Positions 2,567-57,154 of a DNA stretch of 64,000 nt are shown here, one piece after another; within the stretch, counting starts at the first letter, position 1, and each line of letters starts with the position of its first letter. Made by a program: the position numbers and the translations under genes. This stretch comes from Heterodera schachtii (taxonomy: Eukaryota > Nematoda > Chromadorea > Rhabditida > Heteroderidae): contig SIJG01000034.1 in the NCBI GenBank assembly GCA_023374025.1, positions 420,089 to 484,088 on the forward strand. Reading direction: 5' to 3'. Below the pieces are notes generated by a model, which saw only the letters and a program-made list of their open reading frames with translations, searched no databases and was not told the DNA's origin.

Positions 2567-4136
2567 CAAAATAGGGCACACGTGTGTCCTTGTAGCCCTT
2601 GAGCCAATACGTTGTCTGCTTGCCCTTGCCCTTCATTTCCACCTCACCGCGCAGCTCCAAATGGAAGTCGTGGTCCTGGCCGAGCAGTTCTTTGGTTATC
2701 GACGAGACATGAATCCGAAGAGCTGAATTTTTGTAAAAAAAAAATTTGAAAAATTTTATAAAATTTTTTAGTTTTTACGTAATCCGTTGCTCTCCATACG
2801 GCTGGATGTGTTCACAGTGTCGCCGAAAAGGCAATACCTGGGCATCTTTGAGCCAACAACGCCGGCCACGACAGAACCTAAATGTTTTAATCAAAAAAAA
2901 TTTTTTTAATTTAATTTAGGTTTTTTTTTTGAAAAAATATTTTAAACAAAAATTTTAATTGTTTTTAATTAGAAAAAACCTTTAATGAATTTTTAAAAAT
3001 TCGTAAATTCCAAAAATGATAATTTTAAAATTATAAAAATTTCGTTAAAAAAATTCCATCCTGGAAAAATCATTCATTGTTAAAATTCCTTGACGACCTG
3101 AGTGCATTCCGATCCGAAGCTTCAACTGCTCATTTGGCCTATGCCGAATGGTGAAATTCTTCACTTTGTGCAGCAATGCTAGGGCCATCTTCAAGCAAAA
3201 ATAAATATTTATAATAATTATTTAAAAAAATTATTGTTTTTTTACACTTTTCGGTTTTGGTCCTAATTTAAAATTTACAAAAAAAAATGTCATCAAAATG
3301 TGCACTGAAAGCTTTGAGGGTTAGGAGGCTCAAAACACTGAAAATTATCAAATTTTTGGGACCTGAGCAATTTGTGACGCATGGTCCGTGGTCCGTTCGG
3401 GCAGCCCAGAAACAACCATGTAAGCATCACCGATGGTTTCAACCTTGTACACTTGGAAATTGTCCACAACACCGTCAAACGCCAAATACAAGTCGTTGAG
3501 CAGTGTGACAACCTCAAAGACAAATGGGAAAAATTGAGAGTGGAGTGATCAGATGTGCTGATCAAAAAAAAATGGAAAAAATTTTTTGGGGGGGGGGTTA
3601 TAAAATAATCCCCCATGCCTTAAATTTAATTTTCAAAAATTGCTTATTTTTTTATTGGAATTTTCCCCCCTTTTTGAAAATTATTAGACTATTTTTTTTA
3701 GTTCCGAAATTTCTTAGAGGTTTTTTAATAACGATTTTAAATAAAAATTCTATCAAGAATTTTTGCACATTCGTTTTTACAATTATCAAGAAACAAATTT
3801 CGTAAAAAATACAAAATTTGCAAAGAGTTTTTAAGTTTTTTTATAAGGAAAAATTTCTAAGAAATTTAGAAAACGAAAAAAACAGTTTTTTTTTGAATTC
3901 GGAAAGAGAAAACAGAGGGATGAAAATAAAAAGGTGCTCAAATTTTTCGAAAATCTCTCAATCATAACGGTCCGGTCCACCTGCATCGGTGAGGACAAAG
4001 CGGAGAGTGAGGTGAAGCCGACAATGTCAGAGAAATAGATGGTCACACAATCGTACGACTCCGCTTGGACCGGATTGCCATCAATTAGCTGATCAGCAAT
4101 GGACGGTGGCAACAGTTGATGAAGCAGATCTTCCAC
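2567..4136 (-). CDS. Constant region: guanylyl cyclase catalytic domain
   Basis: Five exons (3981-4136, 3363-3512, 3098-3188, 2779-2877, 2567-2722). The domain opens with [10 protein letters not shown] and [11 protein letters not shown] (first metal-binding Asp), then [30 protein letters not shown] (the guanine-selecting Glu and the second metal-binding Asp), [34 protein letters not shown] (guanine-contacting Cys plus the transition-state Asn and Arg), and NGLPLRIHVSS. All residues expected of an active guanylyl rather than adenylyl cyclase are present. The last exon ends in TYWLKGYKD...PYF at a strong donor (gtgagt, phase 1), so a C-terminal tail exon should lie further down. Reading through would instead add an AT-rich tail ending near 2346. 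Confidence 0.9.
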
Positions 4137-7100
4137 CTATCATAGATAAGTGTCACGGTTTTTACATACGTAGACGCCAACTTTAAGCCCCAACATCATT
4201 TCTTACAATTCATCGAATAAATTGATATTAGTGCCCTTTTGAAATTTGGAATCCTCGATTTGATTCGTTTTTAAATTGAAACAAAAACTTAAAAAGCGAG
4301 TGCCAAAGTTGATTTTACACTATTGAAGATCAAGTTCTCGACCTGATGCCAAAAACCTGTTGGGTTTCGATTCAGTTCAGTTTTCATTTTGGATTTTTCG
4401 GACATTTTCCCTTTTCTTATTTTTGCCCAAAAAGCATTCCATTTGTTATTCGTTCCATCCCAAATCCATCACTCAACTTTGACCTATTTTTCCATTTCCC
4501 TTTGGCCAACCATTTGTAATCTCACTCGCTTGGCCCCTCCCATTATGCCAGTATTTAAGCTCGCCAATTGCCTCTCGCATTAACCATTCTTTCCCCATTC
4601 TCATCCTGACCCTTACTCATCTTACTCTTAACCTATTTACTTTACTTTACATCCTTTTCCTTTTGCTTAATTCTTTAACAAAATAAACCAATCGCATTCC
4701 CCTTTGTGGACATTTGGAAAAGTTAATATTTGGTGAAAGTTGGAATTAAATAAGGCACTCGGAGTCTAAGCTTAGCCAAATACACAACAATTTTTGGTGC
4801 CACGACCCGGGAGAAGGTCAAAAGGCTAAGCAAGACTAGCTGAATCAGTTCAGCTGTGGTAAAGGCTCTGTGCCCAACCAAATCTCTCAAATTTGAGCTG
4901 GTCTTAGTTGTGTACTACCAGCCGGGCTGTTTGTGCCAATCACCAAATTTAAAGGAGCTGGTCAAGTGTGTTTTCCAGCCGAGCTGTTGTGCTTAAAAAA
5001 AAAGACTAAGTGTCTTCGAAAAAAAAGAAGTGTCTTTAAAACGAAAAGAATTTTGGAAAATGACTGAGCAAAATTCTTTTAATTCCCAAAATGGTGAAAA
5101 TGTGGTCCTACCGGGACAAATTGGTTCGGATTTCGATCCTATCTTCTTTACCCCTGAGGAGAACCAAAATCTGAACAATGTACTGACCCGAATGCGAACA
5201 TTCGAATCCGCTATTTGCCGACAATTTCGCAAATTGGAGCGAGAATTTTCAGAACTGAAGAATTTGACTCACCAATCAGATGATGCCGATCGAATGGTCA
5301 AAATTGAACGGTCAATAATTGATTTGGAAGATCGAGGAGAAATGGACAATTTTCAAATGGAAGAAAAAATGATAAAAGTGGCGGAAAAAGCTGAAACACT
5401 CGAAATACGGCAAAATGCATTTGAAAGATTGACCAAAGTCAAATTTAACAAAGTGGTGGAGAAAATGAAAGTGGAAATGGCAAAAATAACAGAAAATTTT
5501 GACGTTTTGAAAATAAGAGTGGAATTCCTAGAAATGGAAAATAAATCAGAGGATGATTGGAACGAAAATGGTCACTCTTTTGAACACAAACAATTGCCCT
5601 CAAGCAATGATTCTGAGGATCAACCCAACGAAATGGAGAGTTGTGAAATAATGATTTCTGACCCTTTTTTGGGCGGAATTGCACCATTGGAAATGTTTGA
5701 TGGAAACCCAAGTGTATCGTTTTCACGTTGGGCATCAAAATTTGTGGATATGCTTTCTCTGCTACCCCAATTAACGGAAACCCAAAAACTGAGCAGATTG
5801 AGAATACTCTTAATTGGTCAAGCCAGAGCGGAATTTGAAGCATTGGACCCACCACCCGAAAATTTAACCACCGCTTTGAATCATTTAAAATCAAAATTTG
5901 AAAACGAAAATACCCGTTCCATAGCGAGACAAGCGCTTTCGATTTGCAAACAAGCGCCAGGCGAAAGAGTGTATGAGTTTGCCAACCGACTGAATGAGGC
6001 AATCAGAACTGCCCTCGCTGGGGAAAGTGAGGAGGCCATACGGAAAAGGCTTATGGAGGAGTTCATGGAAAGACTCATTCCCGAGCTCCAATTTGAGGTA
6101 AAGGCGGGAAGACCAAACAGTTATTCAGGTGCGTACGAACTCGCACAACATTTTGAACTGCTTTTGGCATCACGAAGGACAAATCAAATTTCTGTCGCCG
6201 ACTCTGTCGCAGAATTATCCTCCAAAGTTGAGGCGTTGAGCCTTGGGCAATATCAAAGAGAAAATGTCAAAGGAGGGCCCGACAGACGAAGATGCTATTA
6301 CTGCCGTCGCCCTGGGCATTTGGTGAGGGACTGCAAAACAAAGAAAAGAGATGAAAGGCAAAATAGCCGCGGGCCACAAAGAAATAACGAATATTATGGG
6401 AATGAGAGACATTGGAACAGAGGGCCAAATGGTGGAGAAAATTCTCGTTTTGTGAACAGAAGGGAACAAAGAAATGAACGGGAATTCCGCCGGTCCCCAA
6501 CTCCGAATATGCGCCCTAGGGGATACAGTAATAATTCGGGATCCCCCGGGAGAAGAGTTAGCTTTGGTGGAAGATTTGCTGCGGCAAGAATTGCCAGCCC
6601 AATTTTAATGGCATTTATTGCAATTCTGTCTCTCTTTGCCCCAAATATAGCTGCTAATACTGCAGTTAGCCCGATGATTTGCCTATCGGATGCTCCCTCA
6701 AGTCTTTGGTCTATTCCTTCTGACCCCTTTTGCCCAACTTGGACCCCAACAGTGGAACCGATTCCCGCAAATTTTGCCATTTTTAGGCAAAATACAATAC
6801 AGTACAAAACTGAGGCTACGGCTTGTAAATGTGTGAAAACAAGCATTTCAAGAAGAATCGGTTTCTTTGGCGGGAAAATTGAAGAAATAAGTACAAGCCC
6901 AGTGGAAGTCCCAACAGCGATTTGCCACCAAATGAAAGAAATGAAGTATTCACCCGCCGGAGATTTAAATTTTTACGAGGGAAACAAAACATTTAGGGCG
7001 ACAAATAATTCCCTTGAGGTGGGATGGTCAAGTTGGCCTACAGGTATTTTTTGGAGAACAAATGAAGTGACAAATTGTTACGTCTATGGGACAGTGGTGT

Positions 7101-10100
7101 TCACTCGGCACGGAATGCCAGGAATAAGTACACCAGTAAATGATTGTAATGCATGTGTGTACCAATCGGGAAATTGCCATTGTTCACAAATTAGCCTCAT
7201 TTGGAAACCCGATCAAACCCACCAATGTGCTTATGTTGAAGTTGGAAGATGGGGTGGAGAATATTCAACGAGGATTTGGACCGCAAATTATGGGGATTTT
7301 GCTTTAACATTTCTAAATGCCTCGAGAAAATCAGATTGTGATGGGACGGAATTTGTGATTTCCGACCAAGCATTCGCGGTCCCAGCGGCACAGTATGATG
7401 AAATAATTAAGCGAAGTGGTGAACCAAATGAGAGGCGAAAAAGAGAAATTGGCTTAGTGTACTCTTCACAATTGTCAGCTCAATTAACAGCGCTTAGTGT
7501 TAAAATTTCACAAAACACACAGCGATTGTTTACAGAAACAATCAGGCAAATTTGCATGAGTCTAAAATTTTTAGCCGATCAAACGCTTGCACTTGCCGAG
7601 GCCAATCCCACACTTTTGGCTCGCTTTTATTTGGGAAATCCATTTCTTTCGGCAAGATTGGTAACAAAAGAAACGCTGGAAATTAAACCGTGTTTTGCCA
7701 TAAATGAAAGGGAAATGCATTTTAATTGGCAAAGTGGGCACTGTTTTGACAAACTTCCTATTATTTTCAATTTGTATGGAAGACAAAAGCACGGTTTTTT
7801 GGACCCAAATACAATGATAATTCACCCGAGAGCAGGGGAAATTGATTGTAATCAAGCCAAACATTTATACATTGTAGTAAAAGGCAGTATTTTACAATAT
7901 GATCAAATGACAGGGGAAATGACTCATATTCCGTACGGGTCATTACACCAGCTCTCGAGACATGGAAAAATCGATTTTCCAGAATTTCCGGTGCAATTTT
8001 TCAAAAACAAAGTCATGGCAAATTTAACTGAATTGTACTCCCCAGAGAATTTCAATGAAACAATGGAAGTGGCCAAATTTGCCCAAGAAATAGCCCGTCT
8101 CTCTAAGCCCAATGCATGGGAAAGTCCATCAGAGAAATCTGAACAAATGGCTGCAAATATTGTGTCCAGTGGATTGTTTGCCTTCCTCAAAGGTGGAATT
8201 TTTACAATAAATCAGCTTTGGGTTTTTGTGTGTTGTTGCTATGTGACTATTACGGTTTTAATTCAAATTTTGTTGCCTCAACGAATTGCCCAGGCCATTC
8301 AGTACCTAAATTTGGTTGGCCAAGCTCTGAATGTTTTCAAAAATAACAGGAAAAACAGAGACAAAAATGACAGGGTGATTGAATTAAAAAACAATGACCA
8401 AAGGGGAGTGCCAAGGCCGATTCTGAAAAAAAGAGAAATGCGGAGCATAACGCCTTTAACAGAAAGATGGCTATCCCCGGAATTAGGAACAGCAACACCC
8501 CTACAAAGGTCCCTGAGATTTAAAGAAAACGAAATGGAACAAAGAGTGGTGCAAATTGCAGTCGCTGAAACAAATTGTGACCCCAATTTTCGAATTGTCG
8601 GAATGGCAAATGACAAAAAAGTAATCCATTTGTTGGATACAGGTGCACATGTGACTTTGTGTGGCATACAAACAGCAAAAAGACTTGGCATCACCGAATT
8701 GGAACCAGCGAAAATCACTGGAGTAATTGGTGTAAGCGGGAAAATTGTCAATATTTTGGGCCAAAAGAAAATTGAAATGCAAATTTTTGGGTGTACTGTA
8801 GAGACAGTTATTTATGTTGCTGAGGCAGAAATTGGTGGCGTTGGCACCTATGACATTATTGTTGGACGGAAAACTTTCCGCCAATTACCACTGCTGCTTG
8901 ACCTGCAAACGGGTACATTGATAAGGAAGGAAGATGGCCAAACATACAATTGTGAAAAATTCAACGAAAAAGATGTTTATTTTTATGAGTCCGAAAATAA
9001 GAAAGAAAATGGTGAAAAAATCAAAGAAGAATTGGAAATTTGTTTGGAAAAACATAAAAGTGTTTTTGCTAGGCATGAATATGACCTTGGCACATGTGCC
9101 TATTGCGCTCCGCCAATTCTAACAACCTCCGATCTTCCGGAGAGGGTCCGACCTTATCCCGTACCGGAAAAGTATGAGGAGGAATTGAAGGCACAAATTG
9201 AAAAAATGTTAAAATCCGGGGTGATCAGAGAAAGTTGCACCCCGTGGGCCCATAACATTGTCCTTGTCAAAAAGTCTAATGGGCAGTTAAGACCATGTGT
9301 GGATTTCCGGCCACTAAATAAAGTCACGGTCCCAGACCCTTATCCAATTCCCCGAATGGATAAAACAATTTTACGGGCAGCTGGTAAAAAGTGGTACAGT
9401 ACCCTGGATTTGGCCTCAGGGTTTTGGCAAATCCCATTGGACAAGGATAGTTCATACAAATGCGGAATTTTGACTCCCTGGGGACTGTACCAAATGTTGA
9501 AAATGCCGTTCGGCTTAAGAAATGCCCCTAGCATTTTTCAGCGGGTCATGGATAAAGTGCTGAAGGACCTCCCAAATGTCACGGCATACATTGACGACAT
9601 ACTGATACACACAGATTCAGAAAAAGAGCATTTAGAAACATTGGAAAGTGTGTTTGAGAAATTGGAGGAAAATGGGCTTAAATTAAAAAAGGAAAAGTGC
9701 TGTTTCTTTAAAAGTGAATGTACCTATTTGGGACATATTCTAAACAAAAATGGTTATCGCCCATCAATGAATAATCGGGAAGTCATTGAGGCATTCCCAG
9801 CACCGAAAAATGTAAAGGAAGTCAAAAGATTTTTGGGAATGATTTCATTTTTCAGAAAATTTATTCCAGAATTTGCAGTTATAGCCCACCCCTTAAATCA
9901 GTTAACCAAAAAAGAGAATGAATTTAATTGGTTGGAAAAGGAGGAAGAGGCATTCGGAAAATTAAAGCAACAATTGCTTAAGGCACCTTGCCTGAGGGCA
10001 CCGAATTATAAACTGCCATTTTACTTGTTCACGGACGCCTCCGCAGTCGCATATGCAGGCGCACTAATGCAATCAGCTGATGAGAATCAAATGCACGCTG

Positions 10101-13100
10101 TCGGTTTTTGGTCTAGGACTCTTAACTCGACGGAAGCAAAATTTCCTCCAACACATGGAGAGTTGGCTGCTATTGTTCACGCAGTCCAAAATTTCAAACC
10201 CATAATTTATGGAGCAGAACTGATCATTTTAACTGATCACAGACCGCTCACTTTCTTATTTTCCAAGTCAAGCTCAAACCCCAAGCTGAATCGGTGGTTG
10301 ATGTCATTACAGGAATTTGAACCAAAGGTTGTATATTTGGAAGGGAAAGCAAATCGGGTGGCGGATGCCTTATCCCGAGTCCCGATTAAATGGGATCAAA
10401 TTGAATCAAAATGTAAAGAAGACATTCCCTTTTTGCTGGTGACAGATGAAGAAAATGGTTTGGAAATAAATCGGGAGAAAATTGAGAAAGAAACCACTTT
10501 AGACCCAATTTTGTCACAAATTGTCTCAAAAATAAAGGAAAATTGGGTCGAACCAATTCAGGAAGAGCTTAATGTGTATTATAAGCAAAGAGATCAATTA
10601 TATTTGGAAGGAAATTTGATCAGGAAAAAGCCATTGAGACAAATTGTAATCCCGGAAAAAATGCGGAATTTGGTACTAAAACTGTTGCACAGGGCACATT
10701 TTGGGATTGTACGAAATAAGGCAAGGGCAAGAAACCAAGTGTGGTGGCCCGAAATTGGAGATGATGTCGAAAATTTTGTAAAAAGTTGTTGGATTTGTCA
10801 AAAGAATGGGCCTAATCCACCCAAAACAGATGCTGACTATAAATGGCCTGATTCCATGTTCCCATTCGAACGGGTCCATGCCGACTTAGCTGGGCCAATT
10901 TGGGGAACAAATTTTTTTATTTTGGTGGATGCGTATTCAAAATTTCCATTCGTTTACCAAATGAATTCGACTCATTCATCGGCACTTATTAATTCGCTCC
11001 GTGAATTATTTGGAATTTTTGGATCACCAAAAACATTGGTGACCGACAACGGCACTCAGTTTGTGTCAAATGAGATGGAGATGTTCCTTCAGGGGGAAGG
11101 GATACGCCATTTGACATCACCGACATACCATCCTTCGTCAAACGGCGAAGCCGAGCGGTTTGTTCGCACCTTCAAAGAAGGAATGGGCAAAATGTTGGAA
11201 GATGGAAAAAGCATCAAAATTGCGCAATTTGTTTTCCTGCAGGAGTACAGAGCGACCCCTTGCTCTGCAGCAGATGGACAAAGCCCCTCTCAAAGATTTT
11301 TGGGAAGAGAATTGCGTACAGAGTTGGATAAAATAAAAATGTCAGCAAGTGCCATTGAGCGAAAAAGGCGTCTGTTGCCCGAGGCAAATCGTGAAAGGGA
11401 TTTGGTAACGAAAAACTTTGAGCCCGGCGACTTGGTTTGGGTAAAAGAGCCAAATGGTAAATGGACGCCTGGTGTTTTATTGCGCCCAATTGGTGAAAGG
11501 ATTTGGGAGGTGGAGCCTGAGGGATGCTCCATTAGCAAAAGTGCCCATTTGGACCAGTTAAAAGCGCGACGCGCAGTCACTCGACATCATTAATACAGCA
11601 CATAAATGCAATTTGTATATATATTCAATTCCTATTATAAAAAAAAAAAAAAAAAAAAATTTTTGTGCCTCATTAAAGTTCCCAATTAAAAAAAAAAAAA
11701 ATTTAATTAAAAAAAAAAAAATTTAAGTGTTCCAATTTTAAAGCAAAAGCATTTCTCCAATTTGAAAACTAAATTAAATGAGCAACGAAAACACTCCGCC
11801 CACGAATGACCTGGAGGCGATGGAAAAGAAGCTCTTGGAGGGAAAAAAGCTGCGCGGAACGCATTTGGAGGAGTTGAAGCGCAATTTGGAGCAAATGAGC
11901 AGCGAAATTCGCGCCGCAATGAAAGAGCAATTTGAGACGATGTGGGAAAAATTGGAACCACGTTTGGTTGGCCAAGAAAGGGTGACAGCTGCGTTGTCCG
12001 AGGCCCTGGACGACTTCATGGCCGAGAAGCCGGTGACAGTGAACAGCGGGAGAGACGACAAGGACAAAAGCCAGTCGTTGGAGGATGACCCACCGGAAGA
12101 GGGTGGAGAGCCCGAGGTGGCTGAACCGTCGCCTGAGCCAGTGGCGGCACAGGGACAGAATTTTGCGCCTCAGGGAAGAGGCAGGGGCCAGCCGGGCCCT
12201 GGTCGAAAAGACCATTGGAAAAGTCGCGCACCGAAGCAGCAAAAGCGCGTGAACTACTTGGTCCGCCAGTTGGAGAAGGAATGGAAGGGTGCAAACATGC
12301 CGCACGCGCCGCAAAACTGCGACTGTTGGAGTTGTCGCCGTGGACGCGGTTGGAACTATCGTGGAGGGCGAGGCGGTGGCGCCGGAGGACGAGGCTTTGG
12401 ACGTGGCACGTATGGCTACGGGCGTGGGCATGAGCGCGGCCATCACCATGGAGCGGGACCATCGCACTTTGCTCATTGACGGAAGTGTACCAAGAAAATG
12501 CGCGCGGGAGACTCATGGTGGAGGGGAGGAATGTTGGGTTTCGATTCAGTTCAGTTTTCATTTTGGATTTTTCGGACATTTTCCCTTTTCTTATTTTTGC
12601 CCAAAAAGCATTCCATTTGTTATTCGTTCCATCCCAAATCCATCACTCAACTTTGACCTATTTTTCCATTTCCCTTTGGCCAACCATTTGTAATCTCACT
12701 CGCTTGGCCCCTCCCATTATGCCAGTATTTAAGCTCGCCAATTGCCTCTCGCATTAACCATTCTTTCCCCATTCTCATCCTGACCCTTACTCATCTTACT
12801 CTTAACCTATTTACTTTACTTTACATCCTTTTCCTTTTGCTTAATTCTTTAACAAAATAAACCAATCGCATTCCCCTTTGTGGACATTTGGAAAAGTTAA
12901 TATTTGGTGAAAGTTGGAATTAAATAAGGCACTCGGAGTCTAAGCTTAGCCAAATACACAACAAAACCGAATCGAGTGCGGCATTCGATTTAATTGTTAA
13001 TAGAATTTTTTTGCGGTTTCGGTGTCGCCATAATTAAGTCATCAAATTGAGGACTTAACCTGAATTGCAGACTAAGCATGACTCATGCTAGGGAAACCAA

Positions 13101-16100
13101 TCAATCTTTCTATTAAATTTAGAGATTCATTAGTGCTTTAATGGAGTTTTCAGTGCAATCAAATCCGAACCCGAATGAATAAAATATAAAATATGTTATA
13201 ATTTATTTCATTTAGTTTCTTACCTTTTTCTTCTCACCCAAATATTCTTGGGTCCGTTCTTCCACCAGCCCCTCCAAATTGGTCGCATATTGTTCCATAC
13301 GTTTCAGCAGATTGTCCACCAAATTGCTGGTCTCATTCTCTCTGTAAATAAGAATAACCATAGCAAAACGAAAATGTGGGTTTAATAATAAAAAAAAATA
13401 ATTTTTTCGATGCTATTTATGTCGCTGATTACGAATCTGACTTTTATTCTTAGTTTTCAGGCATTTTGAATTTAGTCAGATTTTGTACACAAATCAGACG
13501 TTTATAATTGCGCTTACCTAAATTAGAAAAAAAATAGATTGTCGTTAATCCGGGATTTTTAATTAAAAAATCATTAATCTGTGACTGCCTTTTGACTGCT
13601 TTATTAAATGAAACAATGCTGATGAATTCGGATGAAATTTTGGAAAATATTGCTGATTTTATGTTTGTTTTAGTTTTAAATCGATTTAATTACGCATGTA
13701 ACTAAGAATAAAAATCAGATTCATGATCAGTAGGGCCGCAACTTTTAGTGAAAAAACTTTTTTTTTTTTTTTTTTTGCTCAATTGTTTTGAAGAAAGGAG
13801 CTCAAAAAACGCATTTATGCATTAAAAATTTTCGATTCTGATGTCACTATAGGTCACTAGAAATCACTATTTTGGAGCTTTGTCACTAAAATAGTGAAAA
13901 TTCACTATTTTGGAGTTTTGTCACTATTTTTCACTATTTCGGCATTTTTTGGAAAATTCCTTAATAAAAATGCAATAAAATCAAAAAATACACCCCTAAG
14001 AATCGAGAAAAAATTTTTCTCAAAAATACACCCCTAAGAATCGACTTAAAATTTTTTTTCAAAATACCACTGAGAATTGGAAAATTTTCTTAAAAATTCT
14101 TCTCGCAATTTTTTTTTTCTTGACAAATTTTAATTTAAAAAAGTTCAGTATTTGCTAAGGAAATAATTCAAAGGAAATGTACTTCATTTGCAACTGCAAT
14201 CAGTGAATAAAAATTATTTTTGCTCAATTTTTGGCTGAAAATTATGTCACTATTCGTCACTATTTTGGACTTTTTGTCACTATTTCTTCACTATTTTGGG
14301 ATTTTTACTCACTATTTTAGTTAACTATTTTGGGATTTTTCTTCACTAAAAGTTGCGACCCTAATGATCAGCTTCAAAAAGTAGCCTAGAAAAAATTTAA
14401 AAAACAGGGGGGGGGGGGAGTGACAAAACCCGGAATTGCCAATTTATTTAAATGATTGAAAAATTAATTAGAAAATGCCAAAATCAAATGGCCCGCCCGC
14501 AAACCCACTTGTTCAACGTGTGCACCACTTTGCGTATGGTGCTGAAGTCGGGCCGTCCATGTGGGTTCTCGCTCCAGCATGCCATCATCAAGTCCAACAA
14601 CTTCCTCACCGTGTCCGGCGTGTCGTCCACCGGCGAGAAGTCGGGAATGACCGGTCTGTACAGCTCCGCGTCAATGGGCGGGATCACTTGCAAATGCTCC
14701 AAAACTTCTTTAAAGAAAAATCATTTAAATTCGAATTATGAGGCTTAATACAGGAAAAAGGGTTTATAGACGGAGGAAATTTTAATTGCAAAAAAACCGT
14801 AAGCCGTAATTTTATGTGTGTGTTTATAAAGGACGAAATCTAACTCGTACTGTTTTTCGACAAAGGAACCGTCATAACTTATTTTAATATTAATTAAAAT
14901 AAATATTTGTGGTAGATACTTTATCAATTTGCAAAATTCAAGAAAATTTTCTCATTCTTAAAAAAAGTTATGGATGAAAATATTTCTTTTTTATTTTTGA
15001 TCATAAATTTTTTGAAAAACAATAAAATTAAATTTGGTATTTAGATAAAGAATTTTAAGCGCTGTTTTATGATACCAAAAATGTTTAATTTGGTTTTTTT
15101 TTTTTTTGACGAAAAAAGGTACAAGTCGGGGCAGTACTACGGCTTTTTACCGTTTATAAAAATTCCAGAAAAATTGGTGGCCCTTAAAAAAACTTGCCTA
15201 ATGGGCTCGGGTTTTCTTCCTCGCCCCTGTAGAAGGCACCCTTCCTGTACAGCATTTCGTGCAGAATGAGCGCAAAACTGTACACATCGCCCTTCTGTGT
15301 GCCCTGTATGTGTGCGTCCGGATTCCTGAGCAATTCCGGGGCTGTCCACAATTTTTCTGGAAAATCAAGAGCATTAAAACTTGGAAATTCATGAAAAGAG
15401 ACGCAAAATTGAGGATTGGGAGAAGAACATTTATTTCGAATTGAAAAAAGCATAAAAAACTTTTTATAAGAGAATTTCAAAAAAAAATTTCAAAAAAGAA
15501 AAATGAATAAAAATATAAGTTTTCCCAAAATTTTCAAAAAATTTTCATAAAATTAAAAAAAAATTTTCTTGAAGATTTTTTTTTTAAGACGGGAAACGAT
15601 ATGGGGGAAAAGGCGGAGAGGGAGGGGAGGGGGAACGAGGTGTTCCCACCATTAATTAATAGCTTTGGGGGGGGGGGGGAATTGCATGTCATTAGTTTGT
15701 CAATTAAAATTATTAAAAATTATTAATTACTAAAATTATAGTAAAAAGCTGTGTCAAAGATGCCAATTTAAACACATTAGTCATGACATGCCACACACAC
15801 ACTTCTGTAAAAGGCGTGCGTGCCAATCTCCTCCGGGTTCGTTTCCTCCATGGCGTGCAGTTCGGCCAGCCCAAAATCGGTCACTTTGAGCACAAATCGG
15901 CTGTCCACCACACAGTTGGACGATTTCAGCCGCCCATGGGTACGAATCAACGAACTTGTGTGCAGATAATGCATGCCCTTCAAAACAATATTTTCACAGG
16001 CTTTAATTTTAAAATGAATATCTAAATCACTTTTAGTATGGACTTTTTTAAAATTTTAAATCATTTTTTTTTAATTTTAATTTCTTATGATGGCAATTAT

Positions 16101-19100
16101 ATGTAAAATTGTAATAAAAAAAATTAATAAACAAATGTTAATTAATATAGTAGTATTTTGCACTAAATATTCAATTTTCCTTATTGGTACCTCGTCCAAG
16201 ACCTCCCTCACTCAAATTTTCAATAAATTTCTCAGTTTTCCAAAATATCCATAAAAAATTAGAATTTTATTTGTTGAAAATCTGTTAAAAAGCTGGTTAA
16301 AATATCAAATTTTTCTTGGCTCAGCCCGGAACCCTCCTCTGTACCCAATAAAATGTCGAGGGCACAATTGGGAACGTCATTAATTGTTGATGGCATAAAT
16401 TACAATATTTAGTATACCAAAATACATAATTACACATCAGAGATGTGACCCGAAACTTTTTTTGGGGGGGGGGGGAGTTGCAAAATGAACTGTTAATTTT
16501 CGTAATTTTCCGTAAAATCAATTGTGCTCTGCGCATTTTGCCCCACCTTGACCAGGTCGTGCAGCAGCGAATACTTCATCATTTTGTCCAGCTTGATTTT
16601 CTCATTCTCCAAGATGTCTTCAAGCGATCCCTTCGGGCAATATTCCGTCACAATACAGTAATTTGGCGCATCCACACAAGCACCGCAGAAGCGTGTGATG
16701 TGCTCATGCTGTAAAAATGAAAGAAATTAAAATAAATTAATGAAATGAAAATGAAATAAATTAAAATTGATTAATTAAAAAATTGTCAGATACATATTTG
16801 CTAATTCATAAATGGAAAAGGAGGGGTAGGTCAAATCAAAATTTTTCCGAAATTTTCTAAAGCCGACTTTTTCAAAATCCCTGGAACCAATATCTACTGC
16901 GTTATTTTTTTTTCTAAAAAGGGGGCGGTTTAGAGAACACTTTTTATCATCATCATCATCATCATCATCATTTACTTGCAAGTCCTTCATCTCCTTTAAT
17001 TGGACAAGCAATGAGCGTGGCAATTCCAATTTTGGGTATTTCTTCGGGTCCAAATTGAGCATTTTGATTGCCACCATTGTGCCCTTGTACATCGCTGTTT
17101 TGGTGAAAATCTGCGCGTTGTTCTGCATTTGTATGGTCTCCACGGAACCGCCACTCTGTTAAAGAATGAGCAATATTAGTATTTAAGTAAAATGGTGGGC
17201 TTAACCTAGGAGGAGACCCTCCCATAGGTCGTTTCTTCAAGAAAAAATTTCAAAAACAAAATTTTCAAAAAATTAAGAAGAATTTCAAGAATTAAAAAAA
17301 AAAAATTTTTTTGAAAAAAAAAAAAAAATTAAACTACCTGCCGAAAGATCAGAAATATTTCTCGATAATTAAATCCATTTTCAGAGAAATCCAATAAAAA
17401 TTCATTTTTTAAATCAAAATAAAGTCAAGGCTGAATCACAAGTATCTCACAATCACAGTGAGGCCCTGACCTCACCCAAGAATTCTGGGCTCTAATGCAC
17501 TTTATGAGTCCAATCGAGTTTTATGAGTCCAATCTGACTTTTATGAGTCCAATCGAGTTTTATGAGTCCAATGATTTTTTTAATAAAGTTTTGAGTCCAA
17601 TTTTTATTTTTCACACTGTCAGCCTAAAATTTCAATACACAAAGTAAAGCAGTGTAATCCGGGATTGGGACCGATTTCTTGAAGGTCGATCATTTTGCTT
17701 GTACCTTGGCTAATGATTTCGAAAGAGATTTAAATTAACGAATACAAGAAAATTTCAACACAGAAATGCGTTTTTTGAGCTACTTTCTTCAAAACAATTG
17801 AGCAAAATAAAAGTTTTTCACATGATATCAAGGGGATACAGATAGACAATCACTTTCTATCATTTGTTTAATGCCATTTGGGCTATTAGTTTGAAAAAAC
17901 TCAGATTTGAACCCGGATTTTAGACATAGGCGAAAATGTTCGGGAATTTAATGCATACCAGGGATGGCATCCCGAAGTCCCAAAAATTTTCTGACGTCGG
18001 ACATTAATTGAAAAATTGATTGGACTCATAAACTATGATTGGACTCATAAAAGGTCATTGGACTCATAAATATTTGATTGGACTCAAAAACTCTGATTGG
18101 ACTCATAAAAGTCGATTGGACTCATAAAACTCGATTGGACTCATAAAGTGCATTAGAGCCGAATTCTGATATAACAAAGAGTTTTTGGCTTGGGTTGAAA
18201 GTTTTCCGAATTTTTTTTTTTTGTAATTTCCCCAATTATATATAAATAATATTTCTCTGCATAAGCGCTAACTCACTTTGATGGAATAGCCACTGAATGA
18301 GAATTTCCGGTTCTTGCTGTACGAAATCAATGACTTTTTCCCAGCCGCACTGTTGTTGTACGTGTCCAACTCCTGTTCCTCCACCGTTGATGTCACAGCT
18401 GTTTCCTCAGCGCTCGACTTCTTTTTGTTGTTGTTGCTGACCATGATGGCATTGAAAATGCCGCCACCGCCACCACCACCACCACCAGTGCCACAGTCGG
18501 TGTTGTTCGAATGGGCATAAGATGGAGATGAAAGGTTCCTGCTCATCCGGCTAGCGGTGCCACCACCGATTCGGCTCGCTGTGCCATCGCCGCCGCCGCC
18601 ACCACTCTCTCCACCGTCAATAATGGCACCACCGCCGGTGCCAACATGGTTCTGCTCCACGCTGAGTTTGACATGCTGTTGTTGTTGCTGTTGTTGATCG
18701 CTGTTTGGTGACGACTTTTTGCGCGTAAATATGCTGAATTTGCGGTCAATCATCGCCGAAATTTTGCGCGTTGCACCGGACGAGGAGCTCCGCTTAAAAA
18801 GTATCAAATAAATGTTTTATAAGAAGGGGTGGACATATAAAAGGGGTGCAAATTGTTTCCCCCACCCATGAATCGTTTCCCAGTCCTGAAGTTTTTAAAA
18901 AATATATTTTCAAACAGAGTTTCCAAAAAAAACATGAAATTTTTTTTTAGCGATTTTGAGAAATTTTAAAAATACAGTAACCCATCATAAAATTTTGATA
19001 AAATGGCAAGAAAAATTTTTCAAAATGCTTTTTTTTTTTCTTATAAAAACTCTTTGAAAACTTTGTTTGAAAATTTTAAAAAACCGGGAAAGGGGGGGGG

Positions 19101-30104: not shown

Positions 30105-31716
30105 GATATTTTGACACGGCATGACGATGGACGACCTGGAAGTAGAATTTGATGGCATGTAGCGAGAAGTAGCAACTGCTGGATGGCGACTCGTCCAGCT
30201 GTGCGGCGACCGCGGAGGAGGGCGGCGAGTCTGCGCTGCCACCGCCGCCGGCACCGCCCTTGCGACCGCTGCTCGGCGGCTTGTTCAACGCTCGTCGCTT
30301 GTCATGGTACATGAACACCATGTGCCGATAGTTCAGGTTGATGCCGGCAAGCGCTGGCCCGTCATCCGCGTCATGCATTGCCAAAAATGAGTAAGCCGCT
30401 GCGGCCATTTGTGTGTAGGAGCCGCGCAACCGCGTCACAAACGGGTACTGGTGCTGAACACGATATTTTTTGTTAATCGGACTAACGATCGGCGGAAGGG
30501 GGGCGGGGCATTTTGTCAATTTGTAATTGATGCCATGTTGCTAACTTGCGACTAATTTGTCACTTTGTAGAGACAAAATGCCCGTCTTTGGCATTTCCAA
30601 GCAGTACCTTAGACCCAATGATGGTGGTCAGTCCGGTTGTGGTTAGCACTGGCACACCGTCGCCAAAGCCGGCCGAAATTTTGGACGCAGTTGCAAGTGA
30701 ATAAGCGTCAGCAAATCCGAAAATGGCATCTAATCGCCGCTCACAGTACGCCTAACAGTGTTTCAAATTTTAATGATGAGAAAATTCACCGTTTTCCAAT
30801 TAAATAGTTTTAAAATTCGAAGAAGCATTCATGGTTCACAATAAAAATTAATGAAGCGACGTGCCGTGCCGTCGTACCTGCACAACACCGGTGGCGGAAA
30901 TGCGCTCAGCAAGCAGTGTGTCTTCCCAGTAGCGCGAGTCGTGGTACGTGATGTTGATCCAGCCGGGCGGCATTGTGCCGTGCCGAATCACGTCTTCAAT
31001 GGCAATGTCAATGACAGGCCGAACCTGCAGCAGAACATGGACAACCAATAAATGGCATCAATGAATGTTTGACTAATCCCATCCGAATTTTTCCGGCAAA
31101 TTATGAATTTTTTTCCGTTATTAGGCAACGAATTTTTTTTCTCTAAATCTGATCACCAAAATCAGATAAATCAAAACCAAAGTTGGATCAGCAGCTATCA
31201 CACCCGTCAAAACTGCACACACCGCACCTTGCCGACTGTCAGGCCGAATTTGTCGTTGTTTGATTCACGTTCGGGAAGTATCAGGATGACGTTGAATGGC
31301 TTGGCCGACGATTGTTGTTGTACAATTTTAGTGCTGCTTCTGCTGCCGTTTGGCAGTCGTTGTAGTTGCTGCAATCGCTGGCGATAGAACTCACTGGTCA
31401 ACGACTTGTACGGCTCGGCAGCCGGCTGCCGTGGTGGATCAGATAAAAGTGATCGGCTGGTTCGCCGTTCAGCGGGATCAGCAGCAGCAACAGCTGTGCC
31501 ATCATCAAAATTTTGAGCAGAAATCGAGCCAACAATTAGAGGAGACAGGATGATGAGCAGTAGAAGAAGCATTGAGGATGACGGTGTATGATGATAATGA
31601 TGATGATGTGTTGCAGCAGAATGCCATGAACGGTGGTGTCGCATTTTTGGCCTCCTCCCGATCCTGCACCGGTCTGTGCCATGTAATGTGGATTCATTTG
31701 CTGCAAATTGCGTCAT
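29491..31716 (-). CDS. Variable ectodomain cassette B (alternative gcy N-terminus)
   Basis: Five exons: 31228-31716, 30878-31024, 30608-30751, 30136-30453, 29491-29617 (489, 147, 144, 318 and 127 nt; 408 codons plus one base). ATG at 31716; a His-rich tract precedes the leader MLLLLLIILSPLIVGS. Then come FNVILILPERE, DKFGLTVGK / VRPVIDIAIEDV, DAIFGFADAYSLATASKIS, YPFVTRLRGSYTQ, a Gly/Ser/Pro-rich insertion, CYFSLHAIKFYF and AFDEELPRS. These are successive landmarks of the ANF-receptor ligand-binding domain. The final donor, AAC G/gtaaat, is phase 1. No second membrane-proximal half, transmembrane, kinase-homology or cyclase exon lies between this cassette and cassette A. It therefore either splices about 4.8 kb on to the shared exon at 24642 or is a truncated paralogue. 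The splice join is inferred, the coding content is seen. Confidence 0.75.
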
Positions 31717-35367: not shown

Positions 35368-35399
<32 letters not shown>

Positions 35400-41693: not shown

Positions 41694-44560
41694 CGTTTGT
41701 CATCAAGCTAGCCTTTTGTAAATTTTCGCGCATCTTCATATGGTCATGGTTGAGCTCGTTGAACTAGAAAAATAAAAACAATAAAATTTGATTATCGAAA
41801 TATATATTTTTAATATTAATAATTAAATTTAAAAAAGAATGAGATAAAACAAAAATTGACAATTCTCTCATTCCTTTAAACATTTATTAGAAAACAAACC
41901 TGACCATGAAATGGTTATGCTCCAAATCCTGGGAGAGTTTAACCTGAAAACAAAGTTGAATATATTATATATATATATTGTTATTAGGTGTATTTAATAT
42001 TTAAAATCATTTTACTTTTTGCTTAATTTAGCAAAACCTTTTTACTTAATTAGCAAAACCCTTTCCTTGTACAGGTATGGATTTATTAGAGCCCAGAAAA
42101 GGGCAGGGCTTGTCAGATTTTCCCGACATTATGATCCTGAATGCTTCAACGTAAATTTGATACAAAAAAAAAGAATTTTTAAATCCTGAAATCCGGGTTC
42201 AGTGAGTTCCAAATCCCAGAAGGACGTCCCCCCACCCCGATTCAGTTACCCCCGTCCCCCCTCCCGCCGAATCAGTTTCTCCCCCTCCCGATCAGTTTTA
42301 CCCCCTGTTCCGCCCCCGGATCATCTCCCTCGTTACACTCGCCCCCCGAATCAGTTTCCCCTCTTCCCCTCCCCCCGATTCATTACCATTTTCGACTGAA
42401 GAGAGAGCATCAGCAAATAGCACTCGCCATGCGGGAAATTTGAGCCTGGCGAATTGTACCGTTCATCGTGGAACATGTAAGCCTGTTAATTTTTTCGTTT
42501 GTACATAATTCAGATTCTATCAAAACCATTTCGATGAATTAACGCAAATACATATGAGTTGATTAAATTAGACTCGGACCGCAAAATTGTTTTTTTTTCC
42601 CACATTTTACTGCCAATAATATTTAAATAGGATTTCCAGAAAATTGATTACAAATATGAAATTTAAAAATGCCGTCACGAAAAATCAAAAAAAAAATTTT
42701 TTTTCTTACCAATTTGCGCCATTGCATTTTGATGAACAGATTGAACAACGAATCACGCTACAACTTTGTATGGGCTGGAGATGCGCGTCATCAATTTGTA
42801 TTCCTCCCGATTATCTGATCAACAAACCAAACTCAATATAGAATTTTTCGGTATCAATCAATAGCTCTAAGTGCTCTTTATTAGCCTACAAAATTAAAAA
42901 ATTTTCTTAGACATACAAATCCAAAAAAAATTTCTTGCTTTGTATTTTTTTTTTACAAGTTGATGATTTTTTGTAAGATTTGAAAGCTGAATATAGAAAA
43001 CTAGGAATCATTGAAAGATATCAGGAATTTACAATTTGGTGAATTTTGAGCAAAGTTATGGCAAATTTTTGGGCTAAAAAACGATTAGTTGGCGAATTTT
43101 ACGAAATGTCAAAGATTTCGGTTAAGCTCGGAAAAAAATGAACATGAACAACCACCTAAATTTGTGGTCTGCCCAATGGACGTGATCACTGGGATGCCGG
43201 ACGAGTCGTTGTCATGCCAATATGGTGACATTCGCGCGACTGGTGCCAGCGCATAAACGAATGCATAGCCTTAGGGGGGGGGGGTAAGATTTTAAAATAA
43301 TTTTAATTTAAATTATTTATATTTTCCAACCAATTATGCAGTCAACTTTGTTTTCCACCAGCATATTAATGGCCACATTAGGCCCATGCGCATCCGATGT
43401 TTTTGAGTCATTAAAATGGGTGATCAATGAATTTCGAGGCAACAGTTGGCGCCGGTACACTTCCAGAATGCCCTATATGAATTGTAAAAATGGTGAAAAA
43501 AATGGGAATTTTTGCATTTAAAATGATCGATAGAGAATGGAATTTTAGCGCTATTTTTTCTGCGAACAATTCTTGATGAGAGAAGCACAAAAAACATTTG
43601 TTTTTCTCACTCCTCTTTCGGGGTCTTATTTGTTAGCTTCATTTTATAGCTTTTTGATTGTATATAAAAATTTAAGAAATTCGCCATACATTTTTTTAAT
43701 TTAAATTCTTTATTCTGATCAAGAAAATAAGAAATAAATTAACTTTAATTTTAATTTTTTCGTGCCTATTCGCACCAATTTTGGCACTTTTTTCAATCTA
43801 ACTTTTTAGTAACTATTTAAGTGCCTATGTATTTTGCGATTGTAAGCATCTAAAAATCCATTCTCTAATAATCAGCGGGCTCATATTTATTTAGTAAACC
43901 GACCTCATCCACCACCGGTCGTGCCTTCAGAATGGTGATGCCGAAAGGGTTTTGAGTCTTGCGCCCCTCCCTTGCTGGCAAAGGGAACAGAATGTGGATG
44001 GGATGTGCTGGATCTATGCGGAATCTACGTTGATGCCGTTGTTGTGGCATCCGATTGCCGTAATGCAGTTGTTGTTGTTGCTGCACAATTATCCGCCGTG
44101 CCATTCTCGGCAATGATGCCGGCTTTAAATCGGCATTATGGTCATGATCATCATTATCCTCATAAGATGATGATGACGACGATGATGATGAAGAGGACAC
44201 TGAGGAAGATGATGACACCACTTTTCTTCTGTTGTTGTTGCTGTTATATGGCCAGTCCTGTTGTTGTTGTGGTTCATCACGGTCTTCAAGCAGTACTTCC
44301 AACAATTCAGCAGCATCTGCTGCCAAATCGTCCTGCCTCCGGCTTGGTATGAATGTTGTTGCTTGGGTTTTTGTCGTTGTTTCTGTTGTTGTTGATTGTG
44401 CTTCATCGTTGTCTGCAGCAAAAGCAAGAGCCAATTCAAATGAATGGGCGACCAAAAACAGAACGAAAAATGCCATGCTGGTGGCAGTGAACGTTTTGAT
44501 CAGCATTTTGCCCGAGGCACTTTTTAGCTTCGGCAGTTGCCTTCTTTCTGTTGATGGCAT
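41694..44560 (-). CDS. Variable ectodomain cassette C (alternative gcy N-terminus, carries a frameshift)
   Basis: Seven exons: 43904-44560 (start uncertain; ATGs also at 44506, 44575 and 44770), 43331-43472, 43156-43269, 42710-42814, 42387-42482, 41905-41943, 41694-41763. The leader MLIKTFTATSMAFFVLFLV is followed by Thr, Gln, Ser and Asp/His low-complexity tracts. The fold then begins at IHILFPLPARE, NPFGITILKARPVVDE, and continues with VDCIIGGYAFVYALAPVARMS and IPVITSIGQTT. Exon 42710-42814 reads EEYKLMTRISSPYKVV, then hits TGA at 42753-42755; the homologous sequence resumes one base out of register as RDSLFNLFIKMQW. The last exon ends AAC G/gtgggt in phase 1, like the other cassettes. The summed length is one base too long to stay in frame with the constant region, as a single-base insertion predicts. 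Confidence 0.7.
42710..42814 (-). pseudogene. Frameshifted exon inside cassette C
   Basis: The flanking exons fix the entry phase (two bases needed) and exit phase (zero). In-frame lengths would be 104 or 107 nt, but the exon is 105 nt between a good acceptor (gatcag) and a good donor (gtaaga). On both sides of the break the translation matches the family (a TRI..PY.VV strand, then an F..L...MQWRKL helix leading into AYMFHDERY). This could be an inactivating mutation, a base error in the assembly, or use of a weak internal donor GTT/gtagcg that would drop about 16 residues. Confidence 0.6.
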
Positions 44561-50283: not shown

Positions 50284-50285
<2 letters not shown>

Positions 50286-50338: not shown

Positions 50339-50340
<2 letters not shown>

Positions 50341-53458: not shown

Positions 53459-56400
53459 CTCCGTTGTTGACGCCAACCAGATCAACCAGGTCCTGGCGCG
53501 CCCAGTGCGGACCGCGCGAAGACGGCACAATTGAGGCGGACATTTCCAAGCCCCAGCGTTTGGTCACCGTCCGAGCGTAGAGACCCTTTAACCAAAATTA
53601 AATAGTGCTAAAAGCTAAAAGGTTAAGGAAAAAACGTGATTGACACCTCTGAAAAATTTTTGGAATATCTTCGCGAAAAACCGAGTAAAAAAATAGAAAA
53701 AATTCAAAATATTCCACAAGCGAATTACAAAAAAAAAAAAAAAGTGGCCTCAGGGATAACTGCACTATATGAAAAAGGACTTGAGAGAGATTTATAAATT
53801 GGAAAAATTAAATGTACAAAGATCAAAAATTTTTTTTTAATTATGGGCGGCTTAATCAAGATCGCAGCAAAAAACATTTAGGCTTAAAAATAAAAGATTT
53901 AGCCTAAAATTTTGTAAATAATTTTTTATTCGCTCAATAAATCGATGGAATTTGCTTACCCAAAACAACAGCTATGGAAATCGTAAGTCTAACCAAGTTT
54001 AAGAATTTTCTTCAGAAAATAAGCCATAAGTGGTGGTTGGTCCCCCTTTTTTAAATTGAATTTACGAAAATTTTTACAATGTTTTTTTGTTGTCGTTGAA
54101 ACTATTTTCGTTTTTTTAAGCATTAAAAATAATTTTTTCAAATTTTTAAAAATGAAATTTTTCGTCTCTTACATTCATCAACAGTTTGCAGAAACCGGCC
54201 TCGTGCAGTTCCGTCTCCCAAAACTGTTTTTCGTAGAACATGCGCGAACGGAGCCAACCAAATTGACGGAACAACCGCTCCAACAATTCGCTGATGTGAT
54301 CCTGGAAGAAGATGAAAAACACATTGAACTTTATTTTATTTTTACAAAATAATTAAAATTATTTCAATAAAAAAAAAAACTAAAAATAAAATTTAAAAAA
54401 GCAAAAAAGAAAATAAAACTTGACAACAAATATAAATATTAAATATATGTATATACTGTATAGATTGAATTAAAAAGGGTAAAATGTTGAAAAATGGTAA
54501 AAAAATATTTTTGGCTTTATGATTTTCATACAGTAATCACACTTTGATTGCACCTGAAGTGGTCCAACCCTGGTCAGCAGTACTGTACTCTTCTGTTCGA
54601 TGAAAAATTCACTGAAAAATGGGGTTTATTAAAGTCAGAAAAAAAAAAGAAGAAGCGACCTGAAGCCGGCATTAGTGAAAATTGGCACTCGATAGAAACT
54701 GAGAATGCGCGTGACAGTGGCCAACACATAATCGCAGGCGGGCCCAAAAGCAACGTCCAACTTAATTGGCAAAAATGAACAATTTATCAACCATTTAATA
54801 TATTTATATTACAATTTTTGATATGTTGTTATCATTTTTAAATAATTTTAATTACTTTAATTTGTATAATCACGTTTTTGATTTAGCAATGAGAATTTAT
54901 GAAAATGCAATAAAATTCAAAAAATGAGAAATTTAATGTTCACTTTTTAAGATATGTTTAAGCTAACAATAAGGAAAAGCTGTTTGTTTATTTTTGCGAA
55001 AATCGTCAACAAACGAATAAATTTTTAATGTTTGGAATAGGTAAGACTTTTTTGGATGACTGTAGTAGTCATTTTCTCTGAATGACCTCCTGTAAAATTT
55101 GGCATGCTTAGGAGAGATAGAAAAAAATTTCAAAAAATTTGAGCAAAAATTATTTTGAAAGCATAGCTTTATAAAAAAATTTCCTACCCCCGTGCCATTG
55201 GTCCATTGGACAGCTTCCAACGCTGCCCAAGCAGCACGTCCCTGGTCATGGCAGTGCAGAATGGGTGCCGTGTGTATTTGAAGCCAATCCGGATCAGCTG
55301 TCCATTGGGCCAAGTGAAGGCGGTGCGCGTCGCGGATAGCCACGTCGATGATCCAAAATTAAAACGTAAAAAATAAAATTTTATTCGAACGCAATTCCAT
55401 CAAAATTAATCTTTCTATGACAAATTGAGGTACTTTTCGGGTTTGGGGCTTAAATTTGAATTAAAAAAACAACAAAAGACGCGCAGAATTGCAAAAATAT
55501 TCAATCCAATTGAGTAATTAACGAAAGGGCATTTGTTTCCCACATTAGTACTCGGTTAAAATAAATTAGCATAGAATGAGCATACTTTGACTCTTTATTC
55601 CTCATTCTTCCTTACCACCATTCTTTAAAAAATGACCCTTAACCCTTTTCCAAAAATCATCTATTGAATTTTGAAGATGCCAAAAAATGTAACGCAGATC
55701 CATAATCCATTTAAGGAATATTAGCTTAAATTGTGGTATTTAGGCCCCAAATATAATTTTGGAGCGTAGTTTTTGCAATATTGCGCGTCCTTTGGTTTTT
55801 TAAAAATTCAAATCTAGGCCCCAAAACCGAAAATTACCCAAATTGATTAATGTGTGTGTGTGCCGAAGCGAACGGTTCGTTTATCCACTCCACCGCTGTT
55901 CCCCGCCCAAGAAATTTTTTTTTAATTCAAAAATTTTTTATTTTAATTTTTTATAAAAAATTTATAAGATCCTTTTTAAAAATTTAGTTTTTTAAAATTT
56001 TTAGAAAAATTTTTTTTGCGGGAGGGGGCGTTGAGATACAGGGGGACAGATATGGCGGGGCGAGGCCAATTGCTGAATTTTAAGGACATCCCCGAACATT
56101 TGAAAAAAAGACGGGGATTAGCAAATGTCGGGGATGGAGCATATCCCAGAAAATAGCCAAAATTGACGGGCTTAAGTCGTGCCTTATTAATAATATTTAA
56201 AAATAAGAATGTGTGTCAAACAGTACCGGCATTACTGAAGTGATGGTGGCCAAATGTCGTTCTGTCATTTCTGAAAAATTAAATTTTGAATTTTAAGCCC
56301 CCATTTTAAATTTATTATGCAAATATTACAACAAAAAAAAAATTGACCATTTTTGCCCGAAATCCTCTCAATTTCGGCATCGTCTGGCAAGAAAACAGCA

Positions 56401-57154
56401 CCAAGAAATGGGAACACGTCTCCATTGGTTGAAGACAAATGACGTCGTAAATGACGATGTTCTGGAATTTTTTTTTATATATTGCTTTTGATTTAAAAAA
56501 AATGCAGAAATAATGCCTAAATTTAATATAATTTTTTAGAATATTTAAAAAAAAACAGTTTTGAATATATTAAATTTTATAATTCTGTAAAATGCAAGTA
56601 TGTATTGCCTTTTCGACTCAACTTTTTCAAAACCAAGGATCGGATCTGGAAAATAAAAATTTGGAAGAACCAAGAATCCAGGACAGTTCTCCCCCCCCCC
56701 CACCCCCGCCCTAGGAAAAAGTTTTTAAAAAACTGAAATTTTTTAGTTTTCAATTTTTCTAGTAAAAATTTTTTTTAAGAATTTAACAATTCTATAAGAA
56801 AAATTTTTTTAAATTCAATTAAAAAAATAAGCAATTTTTTTTTGCTTTTTTACAAGAAAAAAGCTCTAAGCATTTAATACAAACAAATTTTCAACGCAGT
56901 TTGTACCCCAATGACCAAGCCACTTATAAAATAATGGCAATTTCTGTCACATAATAATTATCAAAATGATCTAAGCTTTTAACACTACCGATGGGTTGTT
57001 CTGCTGATTGCTTCTGATGAGATTGAATTTGTTGGCGCCGTAGGGGAAATGACGACGAAAATGAGTCGGCCGATGTGCCGATTATGCATGGCACAAACAT
57101 TACAATTGGGACCAAAACAACAAGTGCGAAATGCCGTAGAAGTACGCCAAACAT
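53459..57154 (-). CDS. Variable ectodomain cassette D (alternative gcy N-terminus, farthest upstream)
   Basis: Eight exons: 56989-57154, 56348-56461, 56227-56270, 55188-55352, 54660-54760, 54554-54611, 54173-54301, 53459-53585. ATG at 57154 opens the hydrophobic leader FALVVLVPIVMFVPCIIG. The fold follows: FLGAVFLPDDAE, SVMPIIDVAIRDA, LDVAFGPACDYVLA, RVPIFTNAGFS, STVLLTRVGPLQ, LFRQFGWLRSRMFYEKQF and LVDLVGVNN. It is the most divergent cassette, with a classic FGPACDY segment that I do not see in A-C, which suggests an older split. Phases run 1, 1, 0, 0, 2, 0, 0, 1, and the final donor, GGA G/gtagag, matches the shared acceptor. The 55352 boundary is odd: the bases before ATC ATC GAC are TTTTGG, not AG. 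Confidence 0.7.

Follow-up and report, generated by a model that had tools for sequence, protein, structure and literature searches.

The locus and its exons

The window analysed here is a stretch of 64,000 nucleotides from Heterodera schachtii (C34:420089-484088 of an assembly of 178.5 Mb in 356 contigs), and its minus strand carries a receptor guanylyl cyclase locus that, judged from protein comparison, is the cyst-nematode gcy-28 gene, the orthologue of C. elegans gcy-28. By exon modelling, four 5' cassettes, here called heads, lie in the order D (57154-53459), C (44506-41694), B (31716-29491) and A (26699-25423), and all of them are followed by a single constant part, the tail (K, 24642-2017), with the membrane-proximal, transmembrane, kinase-homology and cyclase exons. 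Each cassette begins with its own start codon and a hydrophobic leader (leaders judged by eye). These models agree with the initial annotation, which had described four minus-strand cassettes and one set of constant exons downstream. With a series of 5' units whose donors all fit one constant part, the window has the make-up of a variable-5'/constant-3' locus.

Head D is modelled with eight exons: exon 1 with the start codon and leader (56989-57154), exon 2 (56348-56461), exon 3 (56227-56270), exon 4 (55188-55352, matched as well by the Bursaphelenchus D head), exon 5 (54660-54760), exon 6 (54554-54611), exon 7 (54173-54301) and exon 8 (53459-53585), which ends in the terminal donor. Head C has seven exons, from the start codon and leader in exon 1 (43904-44506) through exon 2 (43331-43472), exon 3 (43156-43269), exon 4 (42710-42814), exon 5 (42387-42482) and exon 6 (41905-41943) to the terminal exon 7 (41694-41763). 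Five exons form head B: exon 1 with start and leader (31228-31716), then exon 2 (30878-31024), exon 3 (30608-30751) and exon 4 (30136-30453), all three also found in the annotated H. schachtii protein P0003, and exon 5 (29491-29617), which is joined to the constant part in the same protein. Head A likewise has five: exon 1 with start and leader (26346-26699), exon 2 (26205-26255), exon 3 (25878-26122), exon 4 (25680-25797) and exon 5 (25423-25567), the last joined to the constant part in P0002. Two boundaries of head A were corrected by comparison with P0001 and P0002: exon 2 stops at 26205, and exon 4 stops at 25680 in a GC donor. An earlier head A model, in which exon 2 was longer and exon 4 shorter, was dropped on that comparison, and the first model of head C exon 6 was likewise replaced.

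The constant part opens with the shared acceptor of exon 1 (24528-24642) and continues with exons 2 (23791-23899), 3 (23235-23333), 4 (22779-22888), 5 (22569-22686) and 6 (21182-21270), the putative transmembrane segment in exon 7 (21003-21119; hydrophobic stretch judged by eye), exons 8 (20908-20950) and 9 (20401-20556), and a low-complexity juxtamembrane exon 10 (18277-18792). Kinase homology is encoded by exons 11 (16976-17155), 12 (16547-16708), 13 (15803-15977), 14 (15198-15356, with a GC donor) and 15 (14509-14707), the linker before the cyclase by exon 16 (13224-13341), and the cyclase by exons 17 (3981-4136), 18 (3363-3512), 19 (3098-3188) and 20 (2779-2877). Exon 21 (2567-2722) was taken as the end of the locus in the initial annotation; the gene in fact ends at 2017, with a short last exon (2017-2033) that encodes (G)PEYI and the stop and is matched to the C-terminus common to P0001-P0003. 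An optional exon (19793-19852), present in P0003, follows SVGSDK; at this position the canonical C. elegans GCY-28 carries another optional exon, of 13 residues, which isoform d lacks.

All four terminal donors (25423, 29491, 41694 and 53459) are GT and in phase 1, and the shared acceptor at 24642 reads ttgttcag|TGATC, so the homologous donors do fit it, as had been claimed. Cassette lengths of 913 (A), 1225 (B) and 904 (D) are each 1 mod 3, whereas that of C, 1169, is 2 mod 3; the earlier statement that A, B and D stay in frame and C is one base off is thus borne out, and translation of the A+K, B+K and D+K fusions over 21 constant exons meets no stop. The 21 modelled constant exons all have AG acceptors and 20 of 21 have GT donors, the remaining one being GC. 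The introns of head B are all GT-AG, and head A has one GC donor. The two GC donors, at 15198 and 25680, belong to two introns of one gene, and this genome may have many GC-AG introns.

A Pfam search of the tail, with constant exon 10 left out, returned PF01094 (profile positions 181-352), PF07714 and PF00211. Against the PF01094 cut-off of 25.4 bits, heads A (46.5) and D (34.6) score above and head B (21.7) below, and a 122-residue piece of head C exons 1-3 gave no Pfam match. Head and tail together hold the ANF_receptor, kinase-homology and cyclase domains of a receptor guanylyl cyclase, and the ANF_receptor profile is itself split between them, with positions 3-169 in head A and 181-352 in the tail. 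By manual count on a printed alignment, the tail starts at residue 209 of NPR-A. In the accessible part of a docking study of NPR-A, the hormone contacts lie at residues 59-192 (PMC9699598); the positions that touch the ligand would therefore fall within the swapped part.

One such tail was found in the genome. When the constant ectodomain, transmembrane and juxtamembrane part was searched against the whole assembly, all eight matches fell here. The genome-wide head queries were A, B and D, with C not among them; all five matches of head A, all seven of head B (one of them within cassette A) and all six of head D are at the locus. The intracellular query gave 83 matches (79 of 167 candidates scored), and outside the contig C34 the best among the scored candidates reached 44% identity over 150 residues, with pieces of 27-37 residues up to 81%; in our reading these probably belong to other cyclases of this worm. 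No constant exons were found between or upstream of the cassettes by tblastn of the constant part against the window and its flanks, so that with the assembly searches a second tail, or remnants of constant exons between cassettes, are excluded; the initial annotation had named separate constant-region exons as something that would refute its proposal. A fifth head was sought without a match at E 0.5 in 30 kb upstream of D or 10 kb downstream. A loose PF01094 family search of the assembly found eight places, this locus not among them, and is therefore unusable for counting heads; a PF07701 search of the assembly found five, none of them at this locus.

Other features of the window lie in the constant introns. 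In the intron of about 9 kb between 13224 and 4136 there is a long terminal repeat (LTR) retroelement (4358-12964), whose end repeats (4358-4790 and 12532-12964, 433 bp each) are 100% identical, which suggests a recent insertion. It has one long open frame on the plus strand with reverse transcriptase, RNase H and integrase matches, and a family of viral fusion glycoproteins is matched above cut-off as well. In a constant intron, a 19-bp unit (TTTATGAGTCCAATCGA-like) forms arrays at 18011-18147 and 17501-17572, in opposite orientations. Neither a Pfam search of eight further open reading frames of the window (one overlapping constant exon 10) nor an Rfam scan of the window gave a match.

Orthology to gcy-28 and the heads of other nematodes

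In a protein search (best 120 of 368 matches considered), nematode GCY-28 proteins came first, and the top 40 were nearly all nematode guanylate cyclases, with both C. elegans GCY-28 entries included. Over aligned columns, the identity of head A to Heterodera trifolii P0001 is 99%, and so is that of head B to H. schachtii P0003, in keeping with a cyst nematode of Heterodera type. The two C. elegans entries, P0028 (canonical) and P0025 (isoform d), have tails that are identical apart from a one-residue gap and the optional 13-residue exon, whereas their heads are only 16% identical and meet the tail at the same residue. According to the accessible part of PMC9249223, the gcy-28.c and gcy-28.d cDNAs were made with different forward primers and one reverse primer and have separate promoters; the N-termini encoded by the forward primers given there are those of P0028 and P0025, and the reverse primer encodes the C-terminus common to both. 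Therefore, a layout with two heads and one tail is already known in C. elegans. The initial annotation had held that no receptor cyclase with this layout was described and that in C. elegans a complete exon set is normal for every gcy gene; neither statement is supported, and the first is wrong as it stands, since gcy-28, the orthologue of the present gene, is the exception. In the accessible literature, which covers gcy-28 in part, the C. elegans gene is not drawn as a cassette locus, and among the results listed in searches of the open literature there was no description of a multi-head receptor cyclase locus; the exchange of heads in C. elegans may have been noted. In the main text of a paper on NPR evolution (PMC6878697), as far as accessible, 'isoform' and 'alternative' occur 0 times and 'splic' twice.

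A tree of heads with 49 rows, 42 of them nematode, was constructed. It holds four head clades, A with 18 rows (support 81/85), B with 12 (99/100), C with nine (96/99) and D with three (100/100), and each contains one cassette of the window. Clade A extends from Globodera to Caenorhabditis briggsae, clade B from Heterodera to Loa and C. elegans (the head of P0028), and clade C from Ditylenchus to Parascaris, Pristionchus and C. elegans (the head of P0025). Outside the window, the search with head D found such heads only in Ditylenchus and Bursaphelenchus (two matches), and the D head of the window is 65% and 52% identical to them, respectively, over 76% of the query. The G+C content of third codon positions (GC3) is 0.49-0.65 as against 0.27-0.37 in the introns. 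Since each head groups with other nematode heads and GC3 differs from that of the introns, the locus is more than a chance assembly of open frames.

Heads and tails are also joined in annotated proteins of other worms and of this one. Head A is on the tail in Globodera pallida P0002 and Meloidogyne enterolobii P0013, and in H. trifolii P0001 too, though that model garbles constant exon 1; head B is on it in H. schachtii P0003 and M. incognita P0016, and C. elegans P0025 and Parascaris P0123, the latter a model that ends before the cyclase, have head C on the tail. Among annotated models, the order D-C without a cyclase is found in Ditylenchus P0121 and Bursaphelenchus P0122, and Aphelenchoides besseyi P0004 and A. 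fujianensis P0023 both have C-B-A-tail; P0122 and the A-head cyclase P0008 are on contigs both listed with a length of 11,618,144. Together with the order in the window, these partial orders suggest a single ancestral order, D-C-B-A-tail. The models P0121, P0122, P0004 and P0023, and P0124 from Pristionchus, appear to split or fuse gcy-28 heads; their apparent faults include heads without a cyclase, three heads in series, and fusion of a head with a protein that is chemoreceptor-like (by Pfam) or retroelement-like.

The consistent partial orders also bear on the integrity of the assembly. Separate complete genes could have been collapsed, or cassettes of different loci joined, and the lesions of heads C and D described below show that short-range errors may exist; the same heads in consistent orders in three other genera, and the lack of a second tail in the constant-part searches of the assembly, make such an artefact hardly credible.

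Proposed use of the four heads

The reading favoured here, with a probability of about 0.88, is that cyst-nematode gcy-28 has four heads, D, C, B and A, likely with promoters of their own, which are spliced singly onto the shared exon at 24642. The start codons and leaders of the cassettes, together with what is known from C. elegans, point to a separate promoter for each head, at which its transcription would likely start. The terminal donor of the head would then be joined to 24642, over 0.8 kb for head A, 4.8 kb for B, 17 kb for C and 28.8 kb for D, with the intervening cassettes skipped. Each head would bind its own ligand, and the common tail would give the same cyclic GMP signal. By analogy, isoform-specific promoters and one head per transcript would be expected in this species as in C. 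elegans, and heads A and B are very likely in use. For these two the proposed mechanism is well supported, by orthology, and for C and D it is plausible. The earlier proposal was that one cyclase gains several heads through alternative promoters and splicing over long distances. This general scheme is supported by the orthology with GCY-28; a working state of all four heads is not supported in that form, given the frame break in C and the missing AG acceptor in D of this assembly.

Several observations weigh against the four-head reading. Head C has GT-AG introns throughout, and its exon 4 (42814-42710) contains a one-base frame break. In head D, six of seven internal acceptors are AG, and the acceptor before exon 4, at 55352, is GG (ttaattttgg|ATC); no AG that keeps the frame was seen nearby on inspection by eye, and the initial annotation had not mentioned this defect. 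Neither of the two D-head proteins, P0121 and P0122, is joined to a tail, both stopping soon after the D and C heads. Moreover, a search with the C. elegans C head (five matches) and one with the D head (two matches) found no annotated C or D head, respectively, in Heterodera, Globodera or Meloidogyne. These absences are weak, because the C-head search also missed the known C heads of P0023, P0033 and P0122, and because gene finders may drop such cassettes.

It is therefore possible, though we hold it the lesser chance, that only A and B are receptor heads in this worm and that C and D are dying cassettes, which would leave the splicing scheme standing and narrow it to two heads. The frame break, the GG and the missing relatives in the three genera speak for it. 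However, the other internal acceptors of D are AG, its eight donors are GT, all its exons are open, and it has kept 65% identity to the Ditylenchus head; the exons of C apart from exon 4 are likewise open, with intact splice sites. GC3 of the two heads is 0.54 and 0.49, as against 0.27-0.30 in the introns, and single lesions of such a kind also come from assembly errors. Heads C and D may be damaged in this strain or misread in the assembly, and both head types are conserved elsewhere.

The proteins P0121 and P0122, which hold a D and a C head and end soon after the C donor, could alternatively point to secreted binding proteins without a cyclase (decoys or clearance-type receptors), with the C and D heads stopping just past their last exon. 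This seems improbable: C. elegans P0025 has a C head on the full tail, Parascaris P0123 has one on the beginning of the tail, and a head by itself would be without the membrane-proximal half of the ectodomain, which only the tail supplies. Both models probably read through the donors, an error to which gene finding may be prone if the following exon lies far off.

A very long receptor, with the heads spliced in series (D-C-B-A-tail or C-B-A-tail), is what the Aphelenchoides models P0004 and P0023 would represent if taken at face value, as they carry C, B and A heads one after another before the tail. Each head of the window has its own start and leader, however, and the stretches that join the heads in P0004 and P0023 resemble read-through (by eye), whereas the C. 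elegans and Parascaris proteins have one head each. In addition, the internal acceptors of heads A and B are in phase 0 or 2 in eight of eight cases, so that a phase-1 head donor finds no matching acceptor there and wrong joins would break the frame; head C has at least two phase-1 acceptors. Serial splicing is therefore very unlikely, and single splicing of each head onto 24642 is preferred.

Annotated head switches beyond nematodes and comparison with known systems

Of 124 proteins retrieved, 108 had a located junction and at least 60 residues ahead of it. Among these, 17 pairs had tails at least 97% identical, and in 11 of the 17 the heads were less than 70% identical. Eight of the 11 pairs are within one species, namely C. 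elegans, Parascaris, the scallop Argopecten (three heads, hence three pairs), the abalone Haliotis rubra, the ribbon worm Lineus and the horseshoe crab Tachypleus, and the remaining three match proteins across species or include one from a metagenome. In the eight same-species pairs and in one Meloidogyne pair, identity ends within about two residues of the same place, and the switch lies before IILCAS, VVLCAS, IVVLCAS, VIVLCA, RVIVMCAS or NVIILCAS. The switches outside nematodes are annotated isoforms, known from protein sequences alone. Twelve groups, two of them cross-species, were compared by hand; the Mytilus and C. briggsae groups among them showed no head change. Pairings in Lottia and Solemya and two of the three in Tachypleus were rejected as head switches, since their tails differ and they look like separate genes.

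A larger tree, of 77 rows, was also constructed, seven nematode rows having been left out beforehand (C. angaria, Syphacia, Enterobius, Mesorhabditis, an ENA protein, Dirofilaria and the A head of A. fujianensis). The nematode A, B and C heads fall together (32 rows, support 100/100), which suggests that these three arose by duplication within nematodes and do not go back to separate heads of molluscs. Head D is on a long branch beside a Tachypleus head (99/92), and approximately unbiased (AU) tests reject neither a clade of all nematode heads (p 0.168) nor D with the second lophotrochozoan class (p 0.35).

Judged from these proteins, the layout probably dates far back and is shared by other animals. 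What appears new, namely four heads, a consistent order, and a switch point that is nearly the same in the annotated proteins from several phyla of protostomes, is probably an ancient extension of a known case. We lean, with some reserve, towards an NPR-type cyclase with exchangeable heads and one conserved junction in the protostome ancestor, which nematodes, molluscs, ribbon worms and chelicerates would still use, with up to four heads in a fixed order in nematodes, and with each head serving a different ligand and different cells. If the switch point is common by descent to nematodes, molluscs, nemerteans and chelicerates, head exchange would be an old property of these receptors. Many invertebrate receptor cyclases are without a known ligand, according to the accessible part of PMC6878697, and swapping the ligand-contacting half on a constant tail would offer a clean route to ligands, head by head. 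Head swapping also fits the use of the gcy-28.c and gcy-28.d promoters for different C. elegans cells; gcy-28.d expression is specific to the AIA pair, as stated in the accessible part of PMC3842693. If the switch point is indeed shared by descent, trees of whole proteins would blur head exchange, and several gene models with split or fused heads would need correcting.

Among closely comparable systems, C. elegans gcy-28 is by sequence the same gene, with two heads on an identical tail, the same junction residue and separate promoters for c and d; it differs in that two heads (B and C) are seen in the two retrieved proteins, as against four (A, B, C and D) here. NPR1 and NPR2 (GC-A and GC-B) have the same domain order, and their ectodomain homology spans both head and tail. 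The splice variants of NPR-A, in contrast, delete or insert short pieces, and no head exchange is described in the accessible part of PMC10665444. The NPR1-like isoforms of Argopecten, Haliotis rubra, Lineus and Tachypleus resemble the present case in having different heads on an identical or near-identical tail, with a switch within about two residues of the nematode junction; they are taken here from annotated proteins, and their heads need not be orthologous to nematode A-D. In clustered protocadherins and UGT1A-type loci, several variable 5' units with their own promoters share one constant 3' part. The likeness of the present locus to these is in variable 5' units before one constant 3' part; however, they encode other protein families, and the variable unit here consists of five to eight exons and not of one large exon.

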